DNA from: Ferroplasma sp.
GTDB lineage: Archaea > Thermoplasmatota > Thermoplasmata > Thermoplasmatales > Thermoplasmataceae
NCBI RefSeq assembly: GCF_031200575.1
Contig: NZ_CP133597.1
Location: 1,302,001 to 1,366,000, forward strand
DNA length: 64,000 bases
Direction of reading: 5' to 3'
The notes under the pieces are model-generated. The model was not told where the DNA came from and searched no databases. It saw nothing but the letters and a program-made list of their open reading frames with translations. Of the stretch, positions 7,000 to 41,879 are shown piece by piece (position 1 is the stretch's first letter; the number at the start of each line of letters is the position of its first letter). A program made the translations under genes and the position numbers.

Positions 7000-8298
7000 C
7001 TACCAGTCTGCGTTTTCAACCGTAATTCCAAGTCCCGTTTCCTTTCCAAGTATGTACCACGTTATTGCCCCTGCTGATCCTATGACCCAGACGAAAATGT
7101 TGAAAAGCATGTACTGGTCCAGGCTGTATGTATATGTAATATATATTGTTGGAATATAGAGCCCAATACCCAGAAAACGCACCAGCGCTGTAAGGGTGCC
7201 CCTTGATTTTGTAGCCCATACCTCTGATTTCAGGGTATCTTCTGCTAAATATCCCAGCTGGACAAAGGCATTCAATGCAATAACCAGCATCCAGAACATA
7301 ATAATATATTTAGACCAGGTACCTATGGTTTCATATGTGATAAGTGTGAGGACAAGTGCCCCAACGTTTCCATAGAGAAGCATCTTCTTCCTGCTTACCC
7401 TTTCCCCGAAAAGCCCAATAAATCCAACCACAAAGGCTGCCACGCTGGATACAAGCAGTATAAGGTCGGTTAGATTAGGAAATATAATGGGCCCGAGCTC
7501 ATAGGCTATAAGCCCGAAACCTGTTGTCCCTGCAAATGCAGTGGTAAGGGTTGCAAAGAACTTCAGCCAGAAATGTTTCGTTCTATCAAGCTCATCTTTT
7601 TCTGATTTCTTTGAAATGTTCCCAATGCTCTGTGAAAATCGATCCTCCCCGTAATATTTGATTGCGTCAGCCTTTGCCTGTTTCTCATGCCCCATACTTG
7701 CAAGCCACAGGAAACTTTCCGGCAAATAACGCCTCGATGCTAACAGTACTATGAGGACTATGACAATAGTTCCGGCAATCATGATCCTCTGGAAAAATAC
7801 TGACCCATATGCTGTAGAAAAGGCAACGCCTGCCAGCACCAGGCCGCCAAGAGGTATGAAGTTCAGTTCCAGGAGCATGGTAGAGCTTCTATGCTGCCTG
7901 GGCATAATTTCCTGGGAGAGTGCCATGATTGTATTCATCTCTCCTCCGGAAGCAAAAAGAAGTATTGCAAGGAATATCAATATTAGGTAGAAAGAATAGC
8001 TTAGCGTTATGCCAATTGCACCTACACCGTACATTGCCATGGTGATATAGAACACATCCTTTCTTCCGATACGGTCCGATACAGGCCCGGCAACAGCGAT
8101 TCCTATTATGAGCCACAGAGGCGACCATGAAAGCAGTATTGCAGTGAAATCTGGTGGAATTGTTACCCATGTTGTTGCCACTGAAGCCATTCCGAATATA
8201 TAGGATTCAAGAAACATACCCATGGAAAAGGAAATAAACGCCCACGTATCAGTTCTTGTCCATCTTGAAGCAGTTGATATGCTTTTATCTAAATTCAT
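7000..8298 (-). CDS. MFS transporter (metabolite:H+ symporter type)
   Basis: A 432-residue, 12-helix MFS protein. The loop 2-3 signature is GPVSDRIGRKDVFYITM and a second GERVSRKKMLLYG lies in the second half. It resembles the riboswitch-controlled MFS protein at 41861-43099 in overall plan: similar D(R)(I/L)GRK loop, LPES after helix 6, and a short polar tail. Substrate unknown. A TTTATATT element about 22 nt before the ATG supports the start. Confidence 0.85.
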   Translation of the reverse strand: MNLDKSISTASRWTRTDTWAFISFSMGMFLESYIFGMASVATTWVTIPPDFTAILLSWSPLWLIIGIAVAGPVSDRIGRKDVFYITMAMYGVGAIGITLSYSFYLILIFLAILLFASGGEMNTIMALSQEIMPRQHRSSTMLLELNFIPLGGLVLAGVAFSTAYGSVFFQRIMIAGTIVIVLIVLLASRRYLPESFLWLASMGHEKQAKADAIKYYGEDRFSQSIGNISKKSEKDELDRTKHFWLKFFATLTTAFAGTTGFGLIAYELGPIIFPNLTDLILLVSSVAAFVVGFIGLFGERVSRKKMLLYGNVGALVLTLITYETIGTWSKYIIMFWMLVIALNAFVQLGYLAEDTLKSEVWATKSRGTLTALVRFLGIGLYIPTIYITYTYSLDQYMLFNIFVWVIGSAGAITWYILGKETGLGITVENADW

Positions 8299-8358: not shown

Positions 8359-9321
8359 TTAATTTTTGGTATATTCACGATCCAGAAGCAAGTTCCTAGG
8401 CTCCTTATTTACAGCATCTCCGTAATATTCAAGAGTTACCCAGTCCAGGTGCTTTAAATCCATTTCCGTATCAACTATAAGATTGAAATATTCCTTTGCC
8501 CTGAAGTCCGGAAGTATAAAATTCATATACAGTTTATCATCATCTGCATACATAAAAAGAAAATTCCATGAGATATTCTTTTTCATTGCCTTGTTTGCCA
8601 GGAAAAGCAGAATGTCTTCATCAGTTCTTGTTAAGTATATGTGATCATCACCGGACAATTCCTCCATGCCATCAAATTCCTTCATATCTTTATTTGCAAA
8701 AATAAGAAGGCGGAATTGCCCATTATTGGGATAATTATCAATAAACTGGCCAATGGCACCGGTGTTTTTAAGTGCCTTCACCACCCGGTAATTCCCGAAT
8801 ACAGAAATTGGAAGGCTGATAACAATGGATTTCAGATTAACGCACCAGTCTTCCATGTAATCAAGAAAACCGCTGGTTGGACGTAATGTTACCTTGGCTA
8901 CCACGCCCTTTATAGGAAGATATTCTGAAAGAAGGTCAGAAAATGCCATTGTAGAGCTTTCATGCATGAATCCGATTAATACAAGATATTTCCCTTCAAC
9001 TTTGGTATATGGGATTTCCAGTCCGGTTATGCTGTCCAATTTTCGGATAAGATCGGCTATACTTTCATTTACTATCTTTTTTCTAGATGTATAATAAAGC
9101 TGGCGTTCATCAACACCTAAAAGTGGAAAGAATGGGACGAGTTTTTCATAACCGGTAATTTTAGGAATGCAAATTGTCATAAAAAGTTCATCCTCGTCCC
9201 GGGTTATCGAACATGGAGCTTCTAAATCTAATCCGCCACTGATTGCCAGGGGCAACGCATTAAGTTCAATTTTCAGCTCAAAATATTTTGTGAGCTCCCG
9301 GTTTATCTCAGCAAATTCCAT
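8359..9321 (-). CDS. Unknown protein, paralogue A of the glycosyltransferase cassette
   Basis: A 320-residue soluble protein with no recognised family, no clear membrane segment and no signal peptide. It is homologous to the 315-residue protein at 12131-13078. Collinear matches are LYYTSRKKIVNESIADLIRK with YYLISTPIINKRILDLIKE, and FRLLIFANKDMKEF with FRVLIFSQHELEER, followed in both by a Tyr-Arg-Thr/Leu-Thr-Arg-Thr stretch (YLTRTDEDILLFLANKAMKK versus YRTESTNELLNLIKDRANKR). A TATA-like TTTATAT (9341-9347) sits about 19 nt before its ATG, so it may be expressed separately from the glycosyltransferase upstream (33 nt gap). I infer an accessory or regulatory role in polysaccharide synthesis. 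Confidence 0.75.
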   Translation of the reverse strand: MEFAEINRELTKYFELKIELNALPLAISGGLDLEAPCSITRDEDELFMTICIPKITGYEKLVPFFPLLGVDERQLYYTSRKKIVNESIADLIRKLDSITGLEIPYTKVEGKYLVLIGFMHESSTMAFSDLLSEYLPIKGVVAKVTLRPTSGFLDYMEDWCVNLKSIVISLPISVFGNYRVVKALKNTGAIGQFIDNYPNNGQFRLLIFANKDMKEFDGMEELSGDDHIYLTRTDEDILLFLANKAMKKNISWNFLFMYADDDKLYMNFILPDFRAKEYFNLIVDTEMDLKHLDWVTLEYYGDAVNKEPRNLLLDREYTKN

Positions 9322-9354
9322 TATGTATCATATAACAAATATATAAAAATATTG

Positions 9355-10899
9355 TTATGGATTTTCATAGCTTTTGAAGGCGGGGGCATCCATTGATGAT
9401 TCTTTCGGGGGCCTGTTAAGCCAGAATATTGGTAGAAGCAACATAAGCTGGAAGAAACCCCAGAATGCGGATATGTATGCATATACGCTATGCTGCAATA
9501 CAAGATAGATAGATGCGATTGTAAGTAGCAGCATTATAGTAAACTGGGGCCAGAAATGATCCCATGGTAGTTTTACACCTGTCCTCGCCGTGGTGAAAGG
9601 CCTTTTCTTTTTCATCAACACGCTTATGGATGCATAGATGCTCAGCGGGAATATGAGAACATTTGCTGCCATATTGTAAAAGACAAACCGCAGGGGAGCT
9701 CCCTTTTCTGTATGAGAAAGTATAAAGGTGGTCATTACCAAAATGGTGTATGGAAGCCAGGCAAAGAAATACAGAATGTTGTTTATGGTAAGCACCCTGA
9801 TCCCCAGCATGTCTAGAATAGGAGAAATCAGGAATATGAGATAGAACCACCCAAATGTATACCATGTGGTAGTGGCAAACCAGTCAAGTTTCCGGCGCCA
9901 CGGAAATTTTTTGCTCATGATGATTTTTTTCAGTATTTTCGGCATAAGTTCCAGGGAACCGGACATCCATCTCCACTGCTGGTTTACGTATCCCTGCATT
10001 GTTACAGGAGCACGGCCATATACCAGTTTTTTGTTGAAATACATTCCCAGCCATCCATTTATTGCCATATTCACAGTTGTGGCAATATCCTCAACTATGC
10101 TACTTTCATCAAAAAAGTTGACAGATCTTAATGCTTCCATACGGTAAACCACATTAGTTCCACATGAAACCAATGTTCCCGTAACGCTCTTCCCCTCAGT
10201 GAGTATCTCATAGAAAATAAACTGCTGTGCCTGGGCAATCTCGGCCAGAACACTGGAATCGGCATTTGAATAAATTTGTGGCACCTGTACGAAACCGATT
10301 TTCGGGTTTCTATCAAGAAGGGCAGTAGTTTCTCTCAAAAAATCTGGAGCCGGCATCTGGTCTATATCCAGAACACAGGCATACTCCTCTTTTAAATTCT
10401 TAAGAACATCATTAAGGGCACCTGCCTTATATCCCCTACGATTATCTCTATGCACATATTTCATCCCAAGCCTCTGGCAGAGTTCGGCTATGTATTCCGT
10501 ATCTCCTGTGTTAGAGTCATCCAGAACATAGACATCTGCATTTTCTCCCACATTTGAGGAGATGGCTATTAAATTGGTTTTCACCATTTCAGGATTTTCG
10601 TTAAAAATAGGCACAAGCACCGCTACCCTGCCCCCCAGGCCTTTAATATATCCATATTCAATAGTTGACTTATAAACATCTTCGCTCTTCCTGAATGATA
10701 AAAAGTATGTTATACTCTGAATACCAAAAAATACACTGGCTATCCAGAACCAGATGGTAAATAAATACTCCAGGAATGTACCGTGCTTAAGTATCAGGGC
10801 AGCATAAAGTGATGCTATTATGCCTATAAAAATGAAGATAATGGATACAATTGTCATTATATCCACAAACATTACTGTGTATCTGCTCAGGTTAATCAC
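9355..10899 (-). CDS. Processive GT2 glycosyltransferase, cellulose-synthase-like
   Basis: A 514-residue membrane glycosyltransferase. Two or three N-terminal helices (residues ~8-70) precede a GT-A domain that starts at VLVPIFNENPEM. Motifs are DDSNTGD (UDP-binding Asp), DIDQMPAPDF (DxD-type metal site), SSIVEDIATT (the ED catalytic base motif) and QQWRWMSG (QxxRW, the hallmark of processive synthases). At least four C-terminal helices follow. It should polymerise a sugar from an NDP-sugar while exporting the chain. The start is a GTG (10899-10897) overlapping the TGA of the upstream ATPase gene by 4 nt, implying translational coupling. No PilZ domain is visible, so c-di-GMP control is unlikely. 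Confidence 0.9.
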   Translation of the reverse strand: MINLSRYTVMFVDIMTIVSIIFIFIGIIASLYAALILKHGTFLEYLFTIWFWIASVFFGIQSITYFLSFRKSEDVYKSTIEYGYIKGLGGRVAVLVPIFNENPEMVKTNLIAISSNVGENADVYVLDDSNTGDTEYIAELCQRLGMKYVHRDNRRGYKAGALNDVLKNLKEEYACVLDIDQMPAPDFLRETTALLDRNPKIGFVQVPQIYSNADSSVLAEIAQAQQFIFYEILTEGKSVTGTLVSCGTNVVYRMEALRSVNFFDESSIVEDIATTVNMAINGWLGMYFNKKLVYGRAPVTMQGYVNQQWRWMSGSLELMPKILKKIIMSKKFPWRRKLDWFATTTWYTFGWFYLIFLISPILDMLGIRVLTINNILYFFAWLPYTILVMTTFILSHTEKGAPLRFVFYNMAANVLIFPLSIYASISVLMKKKRPFTTARTGVKLPWDHFWPQFTIMLLLTIASIYLVLQHSVYAYISAFWGFFQLMLLLPIFWLNRPPKESSMDAPAFKSYENP

Positions 10900-11993
10900 C
10901 TGATGTTCCTGAATATATCATCATCCGAACTGTTCCTTTTCACTGTGTTTACATGCTGTACAGGTTTTATGCCGTCGGCGGTAATCTGGAAATAGAATGG
11001 ATTGGAATCAAATACAGTACCACGCATTTTTACTATATTCATATATCTGGTTATTCCATCATTCCCGGATGTGTAATTCAGCTTTATTATTCCGGTAACA
11101 TAATATTCTTCAATTCCAAACATGCTCAATTCACTGTTTCTTAATCCTGAGGTGATAATTACTGTAACGCCCTTGAGGGCAAGACTGTTCAGCATTAAAT
11201 TTACATAATCATCATCAGGAATCAGGAGAAGGGTGATGGGATCTATAACTACCCTTTTTATATTATTTGAAATAATAATCTTTTTCAACTCCGTGACAAC
11301 CTTTGTAATAAACTTCCTGAAATCTTCCTTTCCTGAAGATATATCAGATTTCATTGACCTTATTGAATCAGATATTTCCATTACCTCGATCATTTTCTTA
11401 TTGTAATAATCAATAAAGCCTATATCCATTGTCCTGATGTTATCCAGAAACTGATCAGGAAAGGTATCGGTTAGAATCATAAGCCCCTTCTCGCCGATGC
11501 TCGCGCCATATGATAGGAATGTGCTTGCGACGGTGGTTTTCCCTGCGCCGGTAACGCCGGAAATCATATAAACGTATCCAGGCCTGAGACCACCAGAAAG
11601 TTTGGCATCCAGTGTAATTATTCCGAATTTTGCCCTTTGAACAGGTTTATTGCCTTCCTGTTTAATATCTATTATATCTATTCCATATACATTGCACATT
11701 TTTTTTAGATAGTCACCGATTTCGGTGGATGAAATGAGCACTTTTTTTGTTATTCCTGCATCCATAGCCTGTGAATTGAATATCATTATACTGTCTGTTG
11801 TTGTATTCTGATCATAGAGCTTGGCTGCAATCAATATGCCATTAGCCTCAATAATTAAGTAAAATGTATATTCAAGGCCCGATTGGGCCAAAATCTTTCT
11901 GTTTTGGAAAATTGATATTGATTTTATATCCACAGAATATTTAGAAGATAATATTCTCGAAAGTACATCAAAATCCACATTTGTTTGACCCAA
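10896..11993 (-). CDS. KaiC/RecA-like ATPase with N-terminal nuclease-fold-like domain
   Basis: A 365-residue protein in two parts. Residues ~1-125 end in AMDAGITKKVLISSTEIGDY followed by YGIDIID. This pattern resembles the C-terminal half of Mrr-type restriction-endonuclease-like domains, but without a convincing catalytic triad. From about residue 130 there is a RecA/KaiC ATPase core: GLRPGYVYMISGVTGAGKTT (Walker A), a hydrophobic strand ending in VVIDPITLLL (Walker B), and IITSGLRNSEL. The start is TTG 11993, supported by a TATA box 21 nt upstream. The stop overlaps the glycosyltransferase start by 4 nt. An ATP-driven regulator of the synthase is inferred, not shown. Confidence 0.8.
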   Translation of the reverse strand: MGQTNVDFDVLSRILSSKYSVDIKSISIFQNRKILAQSGLEYTFYLIIEANGILIAAKLYDQNTTTDSIMIFNSQAMDAGITKKVLISSTEIGDYLKKMCNVYGIDIIDIKQEGNKPVQRAKFGIITLDAKLSGGLRPGYVYMISGVTGAGKTTVASTFLSYGASIGEKGLMILTDTFPDQFLDNIRTMDIGFIDYYNKKMIEVMEISDSIRSMKSDISSGKEDFRKFITKVVTELKKIIISNNIKRVVIDPITLLLIPDDDYVNLMLNSLALKGVTVIITSGLRNSELSMFGIEEYYVTGIIKLNYTSGNDGITRYMNIVKMRGTVFDSNPFYFQITADGIKPVQHVNTVKRNSSDDDIFRNIR

Positions 11994-12014
11994 CGCCCTC
12001 TAATTAAAGTGTTG

Positions 12015-12022
12015 CATATAAA
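12015..12022 (-). promoter_or_regulatory. TATA box of the ATPase-glycosyltransferase operon
   Basis: TTTATATG on the minus strand ends 21 nt before the TTG start at 11993. It defines the promoter of the two-gene ATPase-GT2 unit and supports the unusual TTG start. Confidence 0.6.
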
Positions 12023-12130
12023 CTTTTTTAAAAGCATGAATAATTAGCATTTATACATGTAATAATTGGATGTGCCCTCTGACTTGATGTTTTTATATTA
12101 ATTCAATTTAAAATAATAAAAATCCTAACA

Positions 12131-13078
12131 TTACAGGTTACCATACATATCAGCATCAAAGTCAGCACAAACACTCAGGTCGATAATATTCTTTCCGTAT
12201 ATCTCCCTGCTGCAGGAAAACATAATCTGTAGATACTCATTGAGCCTGTATGTTGATATTGCGGATGAGGAGTAAAGCTTTCCATTTTCATATTTGATGA
12301 TAATGTTAGCTCTGTAAATTCCGCGTTTATTTGCCCTATCCTTGATCAAGTTAAGAAGTTCATTTGTGCTTTCTGTCCGGTATATCATATCCTTCTTAGA
12401 AAGGCACTTTAAATTATTTCTTTCCTCCAGTTCATGTTGGGAGAATATTAATACACGGAAATTACTTTTATCATATGGATTTTCAACAACTTCAGCAAGC
12501 GCATCGCCCTGCATAAGAATTTCAGTAGGATAATCAATTTTATGTGCACCGATTGGCAGAGAATACTGTATTATTGACAGCGGAGACCTTTTATTTTTTT
12601 TATCCATAAGAAAGATAACATCCTCACTCTTTGTGAGTGCTATATCGTCTATAAAGTATGGAATTTGAAGATATCTGTTTAGGACAAGGGATGTATCTTT
12701 CTTATAAAGGCTATTGAATCTGATCCTGAGAATCATTTTCCCATCTTCTATGGTTATTTCACTGAACTGCAAACTTGGAACATCCCATAATTCCTTAATC
12801 AAATCCAATATTCTTTTATTTATTATCGGTGTGGATATTAAATAATAGGTATCGGTCTCAACAGGGCTGTACGATTCTATTAATTCAATCGCGTGCTTGT
12901 TCAGCAGAGCTTTTGTAATGAATGCTTCAAAATAGTATTTTCCATTGTCACTGTCTTTTTTGATGAAAAGACTGATTACAATTTTATGAAGTCTTGACCA
13001 CCTAAAAATATCAGATGTATCATTTATCAACATTTTCAACTTCATATCAAATCTGCATCCGATATCTTTGATTCGCAT
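12131..13078 (-). CDS. Unknown protein, paralogue B of the glycosyltransferase cassette
   Basis: A 315-residue soluble protein of unknown family, collinear with the protein at 8359-9321 over most of its length (YYLISTPIINKRILDLIKE, an LQIPYF segment aligning with LPIKGV, and FRVLIFSQHELEER). It is richer in Lys, Ile and Asn than its paralogue. It has its own promoter and lies 137 bp upstream of the ATPase. The presence of one copy on each side of a synthase and ATPase suggests a duplicated regulatory or structural partner. Confidence 0.75.
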   Translation of the reverse strand: MRIKDIGCRFDMKLKMLINDTSDIFRWSRLHKIVISLFIKKDSDNGKYYFEAFITKALLNKHAIELIESYSPVETDTYYLISTPIINKRILDLIKELWDVPSLQFSEITIEDGKMILRIRFNSLYKKDTSLVLNRYLQIPYFIDDIALTKSEDVIFLMDKKNKRSPLSIIQYSLPIGAHKIDYPTEILMQGDALAEVVENPYDKSNFRVLIFSQHELEERNNLKCLSKKDMIYRTESTNELLNLIKDRANKRGIYRANIIIKYENGKLYSSSAISTYRLNEYLQIMFSCSREIYGKNIIDLSVCADFDADMYGNL

Positions 13079-13099: not shown

Positions 13100-13107
13100 T
13101 ATATATA
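13100..13107 (-). promoter_or_regulatory. TATA box of cassette paralogue B
   Basis: TATATATA lies 21 nt before ATG 13078 on the minus strand. Confidence 0.55.
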
Positions 13108-13221
13108 ATTATTCTATAACTAAGAATATTTTTTATGTTTGTATTTATTATAATTATATTTTGAGCAACCGTGTGACGATATTAAGAAAAATATTATTAT
13201 GATCTTTTTGATTTTACGTGT

Positions 13222-13749
13222 GTGAAATTCATAATTATTTCAGATGACCTCAGCGGGGCAGCGGGTATGGCATCCATGCTGGGCATAAATATACCGGTAG
13301 TACCATTCCATAAAATAGAAGTTATACATGGATTTACTAATAGAATCCTGTCGGTTGATCTGGAAACCAGGAATTCACAGGATCCTATGAACAGGTTGGT
13401 ATTCATGAATAAAAATTTTCCAGAGTATAGAATCCTAACTAGAATAGACACAATGCTCCGTGGGAGTACATCCCAGTTTATCCAATTCATGTCCCACTAT
13501 TCTAATCTTGCCATTACAGACACAATCCCGGAATATGGCAGGTATACCTTAACTGGGTTTACCTGTTATCGATGTGAAAGAAAAGATATAAATCAGGCAA
13601 TTCCTGAATTAGCAAAAAATAAAGTGGCCATACTGGATTCTGCAACCTATGATGACCTGAATAGAATATCCAGAAAATGCATATATGAAAATATGACCCC
13701 TGTGGATCCCGGCCCACTGATTTCAATTTATTTGAGGATGATATCATGA
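13222..13749 (+). CDS. Four-carbon acid sugar kinase, N-terminal domain as a separate gene
   Basis: A 175-residue product matching the N-terminal domain of the DUF1537 (DtnK/OtnK) kinases that phosphorylate D-threonate or D-erythronate. Matches are FIIISDDLSGAAGMAS (family: ADD.TGA), ILTRIDTMLRGSTSQF (family: K.DS.LRG) and IPEYGRYTLTGF (family: P..GR...G). It starts at GTG 13222, preceded by an AT-rich TATA-like region. It ends exactly where full-length relatives pass into their C-terminal domain. Its TGA overlaps the ATG of the next gene (ATGA), so both parts are probably co-translated. Together they total 310 residues against roughly 420 for typical members. Confidence 0.75.
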   Translation: MKFIIISDDLSGAAGMASMLGINIPVVPFHKIEVIHGFTNRILSVDLETRNSQDPMNRLVFMNKNFPEYRILTRIDTMLRGSTSQFIQFMSHYSNLAITDTIPEYGRYTLTGFTCYRCERKDINQAIPELAKNKVAILDSATYDDLNRISRKCIYENMTPVDPGPLISIYLRMIS

Positions 13750-14153
13750 TTTCCATAGTGGTTGGCAGCATGACAGAAATAACTGAGAAACAGATAGCGC
13801 ATCTACATAAAACACTTCAAAATGATGGAAAAGCTTCAAGTAATAATGTGGCTCTATATTATCTCAGGGATGAACACTTCAGCAGAATAAGGGATAAAGA
13901 ATTCTTAAGGGAACTCTCAATTTCAAATACCTTAATAATGAGCGGAGGCGAAACAGCATATTCCCTGCTGGATGCATCCGGATTCGATTATCTCATAAGC
14001 GGGGGTCAGATAATGCCACTGATTTCAACAGGCAAGGTAAGTGGTGGATTATTTAATGGATTGCATTATATTATCAAGGGTGGCAGCATCGGAGAAATTA
14101 ACATTTATGAAAAAATGATTGAATTCGCCATGGAAAATTTTGGGACTGGATAA
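13746..14153 (+). CDS. Four-carbon acid sugar kinase, C-terminal (nucleotide-binding) domain
   Basis: A 135-residue product corresponding to the C-terminal domain of DUF1537 kinases. ISIVVGSMTEITEKQIAHL matches the domain's opening VVGS-S..T..Q, MSGGETAYSLLDASG matches the ATP-site (S/T)GG.TA, and LISGGQIMPLISTGK and IIKGGSIGE match the final glycine-rich loops. It overlaps the preceding gene by 4 nt in a different frame. Both frames are clean and the break falls at the domain boundary, which argues for a two-subunit enzyme rather than decay. A frameshift within an originally single gene cannot be excluded. Confidence 0.75.
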   Translation: MISIVVGSMTEITEKQIAHLHKTLQNDGKASSNNVALYYLRDEHFSRIRDKEFLRELSISNTLIMSGGETAYSLLDASGFDYLISGGQIMPLISTGKVSGGLFNGLHYIIKGGSIGEINIYEKMIEFAMENFGTG

Positions 14154-14191: not shown

Positions 14192-15157
14192 ATGCTCAAC
14201 ATAGGGATTACTCTGGGTGACCCTGCAGGCATAGGGCCGGAGATTGTTGCAAAGTCAGTTAATTCAATTAAAAACAGGAATTTCAAGATAACATTATTCG
14301 GGGACCGGGAAAATTTCCAGGAAATCCTGAAGCAGTGCATGCTTACTATGGATGGCATCAAGAACATTGACTTTATAAATACAGGGACTGGCGATAGGAT
14401 AGAACAGGGAAGGGTAACAGCACAAGCTGGAAAGATAGCATATAACAGCATAAGAAGCGCAGTAGAATTCGCCATGGCAGGAAGAATAGATGCATTGGCA
14501 ACAGCACCGATTAACAAGGAGGCAATCATAAAGGCAGGATCAGAATACATAGACCATACATCCATGCTTAAGGGACTCACAAATTCCAGATTCATTACTA
14601 CCCTGTTCGAGGTAAAAAGGCTCAGGATTACATTTCTGTCAAAGCATGTATCCCTGCTGGATGCAGTTAAATTTGTAAAAAGGTATAATGTTTACAGCGC
14701 AATAGCTGACACATATAAGAGCATGAGACTGCTGGGGTTCCCTGATCCGGAGATTGCAGTTGCGGCACTGAATCCCCATGCGGGGGAGTCGGGAATGTTC
14801 GGACGTGAGGAGATTGATGAAATAATCCCTGCAGTGGAAAAAGCTAAGGAAACCATGAAGGTATATGGACCGGTACCGGCTGATTCGGTATTTTACCAGG
14901 CGTCCTCCGGCAAATACGATGTGGTTCTGTCACTTTACCATGACCAGGGACATATAGCTGCAAAAACCTATGATTTTAAAAACACAGTTAGCATGAACAT
15001 AGGGCTTCCATTCCTGAGAACCTCTGTGGACCATGGAACAGCCTTTGACATAGCAGGGCAGAATAAGGCTGATTATGTTAGTATGAAGGCCGCAATCATG
15101 ACAGCAGCCAGATATGCCCCTGGCTACAGAAAGAGATTCAAAACATTGAAATTTTAG
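14192..15157 (+). CDS. pdxA: PdxA-family 4-phosphohydroxy-acid dehydrogenase
   Basis: A 321-residue PdxA family protein: ITLGDPAGIGPEIVAKS at the N-terminus, the first metal histidine in YIDHTSMLKGL, the second in ALNPHAGE and the third in LYHDQGHIAAK. Next to a DUF1537 kinase this is the PdxA2 arrangement, in which the kinase makes 4-phospho-D-threonate or -erythronate and PdxA2 oxidatively decarboxylates it to dihydroxyacetone phosphate. That catabolic role is more likely than pyridoxine synthesis, because no other vitamin B6 gene is visible. All three histidines are retained. Confidence 0.88.
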   Translation: MLNIGITLGDPAGIGPEIVAKSVNSIKNRNFKITLFGDRENFQEILKQCMLTMDGIKNIDFINTGTGDRIEQGRVTAQAGKIAYNSIRSAVEFAMAGRIDALATAPINKEAIIKAGSEYIDHTSMLKGLTNSRFITTLFEVKRLRITFLSKHVSLLDAVKFVKRYNVYSAIADTYKSMRLLGFPDPEIAVAALNPHAGESGMFGREEIDEIIPAVEKAKETMKVYGPVPADSVFYQASSGKYDVVLSLYHDQGHIAAKTYDFKNTVSMNIGLPFLRTSVDHGTAFDIAGQNKADYVSMKAAIMTAARYAPGYRKRFKTLKF

Positions 15158-41738: not shown

Positions 41739-41756
41739 TGTTTTATAAATATATAA

Positions 41757-41835
41757 TTACCGGGGAGCGAAAAGCTGAGAGGATAGGGATCGACCCGTGT
41801 AACCTGATCCGGACAATACCGGCGGAGGGAGATGG
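41757..41835 (+). promoter_or_regulatory. TPP riboswitch (THI element)
   Basis: All conserved parts of the thiamine pyrophosphate aptamer are present in order: CGGGGAGC, then GCTGAGAGG (the pyrimidine-binding GCUGAGA bulge), GATCGACCC, AACCTGATCC and GGACAATACC, then CGGAGGGAG. The 3' strand of the aptamer contains GGAGGG (41824-41829), which can act as a Shine-Dalgarno sequence. It lies 25 nt before the start of the MFS gene. Ligand binding should bury this purine tract and lower expression. Confidence 0.95.
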
Positions 41836-41879
41836 ATACGAAATATGAATTTATAGAATTATGGTGGCTATTACGTTAA
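41832..41879 (+). CDS. Possible 15-codon leader ORF overlapping the MFS start
   Basis: ATG 41832, in the last bases of the aptamer, opens a short frame (MDTKYEFIELWWLLR) ending at TAA 41877-41879. It overlaps the start of the MFS gene in another frame. The GGAGGG tract lies only 2 nt before this ATG, which is closer than a normal ribosome-binding spacing. There is no coding evidence beyond its position, and it may be fortuitous. Confidence 0.2.
   Translation: MDTKYEFIELWWLLR

Follow-up and report, generated by a model that had tools for sequence, protein, structure and literature searches.

A 64,000-nucleotide stretch of the genome of Ferroplasma sp. (contig NZ_CP133597.1, positions 1,302,001 to 1,366,000; hereafter the window) carries, between its positions 8359 and 13078, four consecutive minus-strand genes that encode, in order of transcription, a protein of the Ta1207 family (A), an ATPase of the KaiC family, a membrane glycosyltransferase of family 2 (GT2) resembling the bacterial cellulose synthase subunit BcsA, and a second Ta1207 protein (B). 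We propose that a BcsA-like synthase that has no PilZ domain is gated by a nucleotide-dependent regulator of the KaiC type, with Ta1207 proteins as partners of the regulator, a reading that we hold to be about evenly balanced between right and wrong. The arrangement is real and conserved, and it is a new combination of known parts; judged from sequence, its regulatory logic is plausible. The ATPase and the GT2 form a tight unit, and Ta1207 follows the ATPase, not the synthase. The genome consists of one contig of 1.86 Mb and belongs to a genus (g1) that also includes genome G052, which we take to be Ferroplasma acidarmanus Fer1. The cassette was first noticed in a preliminary description of the window, whose letters for the two flanking genes are reversed here (A is the upstream gene, B the downstream one; Table 1) and whose interpretation is, overall, partly supported.

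The GT2 contains the sequences VLDDS, VLDID, IVED, and QQWRW, which correspond to the D, DxD, ED, and QxxRW motifs of processive GT2 enzymes and bear out its earlier designation as cellulose-synthase-like; the four patterns match all 20 GT2 proteins scanned, save DxD in one of them (L112). Its best sequence match in the PDB is BcsA (5ej1, E 2.3e-27), and it scores 150.1 bits against the BcsA equivalog TIGR03030, far under the cut-off of 699.1. A beta-helix-like protein is encoded beside the GT2 in five of 17 distinct GT2 loci (L096, L109, L110, L112, and L116). Together, the motifs, the BcsA match, and the beta-helix-like neighbor point to a putative processive synthase of beta-polysaccharide. 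BcsA-like GT2 enzymes extrude their own chain. No separate export component was seen among the neighboring genes, and the export system proposed earlier is not supported. The reported absence of PilZ was confirmed, as neither PilZ nor GGDEF gives a Pfam match up to E 1 in any of the four cassette proteins, the ATPase included.

Conservation of the ATPase-GT2 pair was examined at 34 ATPase loci, all scoring above 300 bits with the ATPase profile (in L122 the ATPase gene is split into two frames); gaps between genes are derived from the longest open frames and are approximate. In the family that contains Ferroplasma (f1), the GT2 gene lies directly 3' of the ATPase gene in 14 of 15 loci, four of them with a 4-bp overlap, so the coupling first seen as a GTGA overlap in the window is a conserved one. 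The exception, L103, on a contig of a metagenome-assembled genome, has a GT2 remnant with 49% identity over 47 amino acids. Among 101 genomes of the order, strong matches (post hoc cut-offs of E ≤1.1e-81 for the ATPase, ≤1e-180 for the GT2, ≤1.1e-38 for A, and ≤1e-24 for B, which place the ATPases of a second family, f4, at 1e-70 and weaker, outside this count) were found for the ATPase, the GT2, and A in 13 genomes each and for B in 12. The ATPase and the GT2 occur together in 12 genomes and one alone in two; A and the ATPase show the same figures (12 and two), and B and the ATPase occur together in 11 and one alone in three. Fisher values computed on these overlaps take no account of common ancestry and are not read as probabilities. 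Genome G336 has the ATPase, A, and B, yet GT2 only as the remnant, and in G325 (80% complete) no ATPase was found although A, B, and GT2 are present; at these cut-offs G122 is without A and B, and G024 without B. At 17 short loci that hold more distant GT2 genes from the order (L078-L094), no KaiC match was found up to E 10.

The ATPase contains a single KaiC stretch, unlike the two-domain circadian KaiC. Its Walker A motif reads GVTGAGKT, and the pattern G..G.GKT is kept in all 34 ATPases. KaiC has a catalytic pair of glutamates; DT aligns with this pair in the window ATPase, and EE occurs at that position in none of the 34. In the predicted model, the KaiC part resembles KaiC 8dba (VIA Z 14.7, 144 residues aligned, 2.7 Å), a match that lies on a low-confidence region (mean pLDDT 61.7). 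A diverged KaiC-GT2 pair with the same gene order was found at three loci (L117-L119), two of which have a 4-bp overlap, and Walker A is lost in both of the two diverged KaiC sequences inspected. In our view, the strongest indication that the KaiC-type protein serves as a regulatory subunit and not as a motor is that two pairs have differently altered ATP sites, each pair tied to its own GT2. The diverged KaiC-like protein also has pairs of cysteines and, by eye, a winged-helix-like N-terminus, and the diverged GT2 match in Fer1 (L119) contains an internal stop. There was no support for the idea that this protein shares the N-terminal domain of the cassette ATPase (hhalign probability 0.5%, E 0.11; hidden Markov model E 0.23 or worse for three proteins).

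That N-terminal domain is modeled with 10-residue pLDDT means of 61-90 over residues 1-110, and its predicted helices (H) and strands (E) run H8-19, E27-35, E41-50, E53-59, H66-78, and E83-88. This order suggests a nuclease-like domain (PD-(D/E)XK-like); we claim no fold for it, because the ATPase model is poor over the KaiC part and the VIA match list spans residues 123-299, with the domain barely touched by the comparison. In genomes that do not have the ATPase form, a profile of the domain (A4) also finds proteins of 229-263 amino acids, one of which is cut by a contig end. Of the 13 that were read, six were scanned, and each of the six carries an HTH_45 winged helix at its C-terminal end. 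One of them (L203) passes the DUF1829 cut-off over residues 43-91 (25.2 versus 22.2 bits), and the N-terminal domain of an f4 ATPase matches DUF1829 below the cut-off (E 0.069). Because it recurs on HTH_45 winged-helix proteins, the domain looks like a regulatory part of the ATPase. It could also be read as DNA-associated, in which case the ATPase would be mainly a gene regulator that controls the cassette locus and other genes. Besides the fusion to HTH_45 in a domain thus shared with winged-helix transcription factors, this explanation draws on the distribution within f1, where 12 genomes have the ATPase form, 11 the short form, and none both (33 listed), and on the winged-helix-like N-termini apparent by eye in the diverged KaiC and in L211, a relative from another family. 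The cassette ATPase itself, however, has no helix-turn-helix match in Pfam up to E 1, and the overlap of its gene with that of a membrane enzyme points to coupling at the protein level; we regard a mainly transcriptional role as distinctly unlikely.

The flanking proteins A and B are homologous, as first described, and share 63 of 263 aligned residues (24% identity, E 3e-16). They had been thought to fit no family, but both exceed the Pfam cut-off for PF19020 (Ta1207). Structure prediction, proposed for both proteins, was run on A. The model (pLDDT 90.2), made up of repeated ferredoxin-like units, has the fold seen in the crystal structure of the family's founder, Ta1207 of Thermoplasma acidophilum (5M86; VIA Z 23.2, 292 residues aligned, 3.8 Å; Foldseek E 1.5e-14, TM 0.69), and the next VIA row is far lower (Z 8.3). 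Identity across the structural alignment is only 12%, and 5M86 was missed when the PDB was searched by sequence, whether with A or with a 12-row profile as query; only the fold search detected it. Weaker VIA matches include ACT-type regulatory domains (Z 7-8, root mean square deviation about 10 Å), which do not indicate a function. The family has a solved structure and, to our knowledge, no known function; 5M86 itself is presumably a homopentamer. No paper naming Ta1207 was found in the literature searched.

PF19020 was found in 52 of 300 genomes of the class (51 above the cut-off), all from f1 and f4, and in 26 of 243 genomes of the phylum, all from f1; 14 control genomes gave no match. Within f1, a Ta1207 gene lies within 4 kb of the ATPase gene in 12 of 15 loci, where the rough chance of such proximity to a given gene is about 2%; two of the remaining loci (L109 and L115) end at contig ends, and the third is L114. 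In f4, nine of 19 ATPase loci have an upstream Ta1207 gene on the same strand and a second one on the opposite strand, and ten have none. Because this second archaeal family has Ta1207 and the ATPase without GT2, we take Ta1207 to go with the ATPase and not with the synthase.

A phylogenetic tree of Ta1207 proteins from the fetched loci (not all genome copies) agrees. Of 108 matches, five were dropped by length, three of these being fragments at f4 ATPase loci, and the resulting 103 rows were analyzed by a short search with SH-aLRT support only. The 35 rows linked to an ATPase (within 4 kb) fall into two clades only, 26 in a clade of 32 rows (support 99) and nine in a clade of 12 rows (98), with none among the remaining 59. 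The six unlinked rows of the larger clade come from G000, G052, G034, and G148, each with an ATPase elsewhere in the genome, and the three of the smaller clade from G162 and G267, which are without a listed ATPase match. An earlier and more careful tree of 66 rows recovers the same groups. Near its ATPase-GT2 pair, the f1 genome G122 encodes the proteins most closely related to the two f4 Ta1207 proteins (100/100 and 100/99); the association is therefore older than the split between f1 and f4 or was transferred between the families. These patterns bear on the suggestion that the ATPase and GT2 are the sole working unit and Ta1207 a bystander among loose neighbors. The number and side of the Ta1207 genes do vary between loci, and by eye A, the ATPase, and B have TATA-like stretches of their own; yet clade pattern and genome distribution match those of the ATPase, and 12 of 15 loci is far from the chance expectation, leaving the bystander explanation very improbable.

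Several observations weigh against the proposed gating scheme. No GT2 was found in the 19 fetched f4 stretches, some of them short, so the older job of the Ta1207-ATPase module may not be polysaccharide. In Fer1 and G034, relatives of A and B are adjacent at the site syntenic with the window, with no ATPase-GT2 between them, and in L114 the ATPase-GT2 pair is present with the nearest Ta1207 more than 6 kb away. Ta1207 occurs where no ATPase match was found at E 1e-5, in G067, G103, and the genus g3 (G082 and G075, presumably Thermoplasma) among others, and it is expanded in genomes without the cassette ATPase. In the 66-row tree, the branch joining 29 mostly linked rows has support of 94/93, below the tool's mark. 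Two further GT2 genes of the diverged type, one in L121 and one in L120 close to the end of its contig, have no KaiC gene. Just two of the five copies of the beta-helix-like protein have pectate-lyase-type Pfam matches, both below threshold, and a search of the window's genome, run without a positive control, found no copy.

On a rival explanation, Ta1207 and the ATPase would be a general signaling module, with GT2 as only one of several outputs that the ATPase acquired and Ta1207 itself unrelated to polysaccharide. The f4 loci with Ta1207 and the ATPase, in eight of nine of which the ATPase gene faces genes for large proteins, speak for such a module, as do the separately placed relatives of A and B in Fer1 and G034 and the absence of an ATPase within 4 kb of any of the 59 rows outside the two clades. 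On the other side, the A and B types, the f1-type ATPase, and the GT2 are nearly identical in their distribution among genomes, and we consider the general module unlikely, if less so than either alternative above. That the paralogue family always neighbors GT2 and ATPase genes, put forward for testing in the preliminary description, is not supported, given the many Ta1207 genomes without the ATPase and the f4 loci without GT2; the family as a whole does lie mostly elsewhere, which that description had named as an outcome that would refute it, but not the two clades that hold every linked row.

Returning to the proposed gating of the synthase, its core would be two genes, for the KaiC-family ATPase and for the BcsA-like membrane GT2 that would make and extrude a beta-linked polysaccharide. 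The ATPase would be a cytosolic subunit dedicated to regulating the synthase, a role held in bacteria by PilZ with cyclic di-GMP (c-di-GMP), BcsQ, and BcsE. It is probably a nucleotide-bound ring and, since the catalytic glutamate pair of KaiC is gone, would switch through ATP binding and slow turnover, not fast hydrolysis. Input or partner binding is the likely task of its N-terminal domain, which also occurs on winged-helix proteins, and the Ta1207 pair may be soluble scaffold or sensor partners, drawn from a module that also exists without GT2. We infer the complex, ring, gating, polymer, and Ta1207 role from the gene anatomy, family membership, conservation, and motif changes described above. 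A more specific version, in which a KaiC-type nucleotide ring, not c-di-GMP and PilZ, controls a cellulose-type synthase post-translationally, with a ring-forming Ta1207 pair as sensors or adaptors and an output that follows energy charge or a ligand, is a speculative proposal that we doubt more than we believe.

Parts of this scheme have precedents in published work, cited here by PMC number from the portions available. A regulatory role for proteins of the KaiC family is accepted in archaea (PMC8978795, PMC13286277), in line with the earlier view of the ATPase as a control element: ArlH, which resembles KaiC and binds ATP, is a putative archaellum regulator (PMC8978795), and CirA, a homologue of KaiC in Haloferax, has effects on motility and on the shape of the cells (PMC13286277). 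The cassette ATPase, like ArlH, is a KaiC-like ATP binder and putative regulator of a membrane machine; its partner here is a glycan synthase, and it scores 33.8 bits against the ArlH model NF052589 (NCBIfam), where the cut-off is 215. The earlier contrast with bacterial control was overdrawn. Escherichia coli BcsE has a degenerate, self-associating RecA-like N-terminal domain with a diverged Walker A, which its authors overlay on KaiC, and helps to recruit BcsRQ to the membrane (PMC7439463). The E. coli system with BcsQ and BcsE has a BcsA whose GT2 core and motifs are common to the cassette GT2, and BcsE and the cassette ATPase both include a RecA-like or KaiC-like part; the cassette ATPase differs in keeping Walker A and in its N-terminal domain, and the cassette in having no PilZ or GGDEF-like match. 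In Methanobacteriaceae, receiver (REC) domains are fused to BcsA-like glycosyltransferases (MTH_548; PMC5847659), which likewise join an archaeal BcsA-like enzyme to a signaling domain, but by fusion and not through a separate KaiC-type ATPase. Among the available portions of other papers, a 2025 study of Ferroplasma mentions catalytic subunits of cellulose synthase as well as clusters for exopolysaccharide, but no KaiC-GT2 pairing (PMC12350378), and two more contain nothing on it (PMC6393860, PMC10354927). No paper pairing KaiC-type ATPases with such GT2 enzymes was found in the literature searched, which leaves out most subscription papers and the 2017 survey of KaiC-like proteins.

Features of the locus are listed in Table 1. 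The TATA-like stretches were picked by eye without a chance control; they lie about 20-30 nt ahead of the A, B, and ATPase genes, and none is evident by eye ahead of the window GT2. This pattern suggests three transcription units, in which the ATPase and GT2 alone share one message. One operon for all four genes is not shown, and only ATPase-GT2 is clearly a unit.

Table 1. Features of the Ta1207-ATPase-GT2 locus, in window coordinates.
Feature	Position	Strand	Evidence
Ta1207-family protein A, 315 aa	12131..13078	-	PF19020, 160.3 bits vs cut-off 26.3; model matches 5M86
KaiC-family ATPase with extra N-terminal domain, 365 aa, TTG start	10896..11993	-	PF06745, 139 bits vs 26.6
ATPase N-terminal domain, about residues 1-115	11649..11993	-	Predicted model; domain also on winged-helix proteins
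KaiC ATPase domain, residues 122-343	10965..11630	-	Pfam match; structural match to KaiC 8dba
GTGA overlap, ATPase stop / GT2 start	10896..10899	-	Read in sequence: aggaacatcagGTGAttaac (minus strand)
BcsA-like processive GT2, 514 aa, GTG start, about 7 hydrophobic segments	9355..10899	-	PF13632 and PF13641 above cut-off
Ta1207-family protein B, 320 aa	8359..9321	-	PF19020, 110.9 bits vs 26.3; 24% identity to A
TATA-like stretch 5' of A	13101..13110	-	By eye; similar in L102, also 5' of the L114 A-type gene
TATA-like stretch TTTATATG 5' of ATPase gene	12015..12022	-	By eye; similar in L102, L104, L105
TATA-like stretch TTTTTATATATTT 5' of B	9337..9349	-	By eye; similar in L102, L104, L105, and L114 B-type gene
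Major facilitator superfamily (MFS) transporter, 3' of B	7000..8298	-	PF00083/PF07690

The MFS transporter is probably not part of the system; its cluster is seen again in only two places, L102 and the A/B site in L114. Upstream and divergent are genes (13222-14153 and 14192-15157, both on the plus strand) that by eye encode a four-carbon acid sugar kinase-like protein, in two overlapping frames, and a PdxA-like dehydrogenase; the clusters follow each other in the same order in L102 and L114. Elsewhere in the window, a thiamine pyrophosphate riboswitch at 41751-41847 (plus strand) scores above the Rfam gathering score.

Ta1207 genes are often present in multiple copies, with at least eight or at least nine scored copies in some genomes. 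The window's genome has a third, about 127 kb away, whose neighbors (named by eye) are acyl-CoA-synthetase-like, GPR1/YaaH-like, and oligopeptide-ABC-like genes; no GT2 lies beside it in the 16 kb examined. In 40 loci beyond the ATPase loci, no common partner of the expansions was found, and shared neighbors recur mainly between related genomes. A single lead is otsA/otsB (trehalose-phosphate synthase and phosphatase) near the Ta1207 genes of L142, L162, and L164, in G082, G075, and G128, with Pfam matches for L142 only. Open frames of about 650-680 amino acids with a Ta1207 match (L163 3910, 654 amino acids; G294; G214) are possibly double-length fused Ta1207 proteins. Two distant GT2 genes adjoin Ta1207 in ATPase-free genomes, L090 (G243, about 1.2 kb) and a weak GT2 in L152 (G103). 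The large proteins whose genes face f4 loci L122-L128 and L130 reach about 1500 amino acids, some being cut by the stretch, and both of the two scanned have weak, sub-threshold Ig/PKD-like matches. In L131, a second f4 ATPase copy adjoins a gene for a DUF790 protein, and genes of the Ada-like and DUF72 types are close by.

The cassette offers Ta1207 a concrete, testable partner and process. It suggests a route by which archaea could control a BcsA-like synthase that has no PilZ domain, and it would tie KaiC-type signaling to surface polysaccharide in organisms of acid mine biofilms. If the nucleotide-ring version were true, the polysaccharide output of these wall-less acidophilic archaea would be linked to energy charge or a ligand, and Ta1207 would gain its first function.

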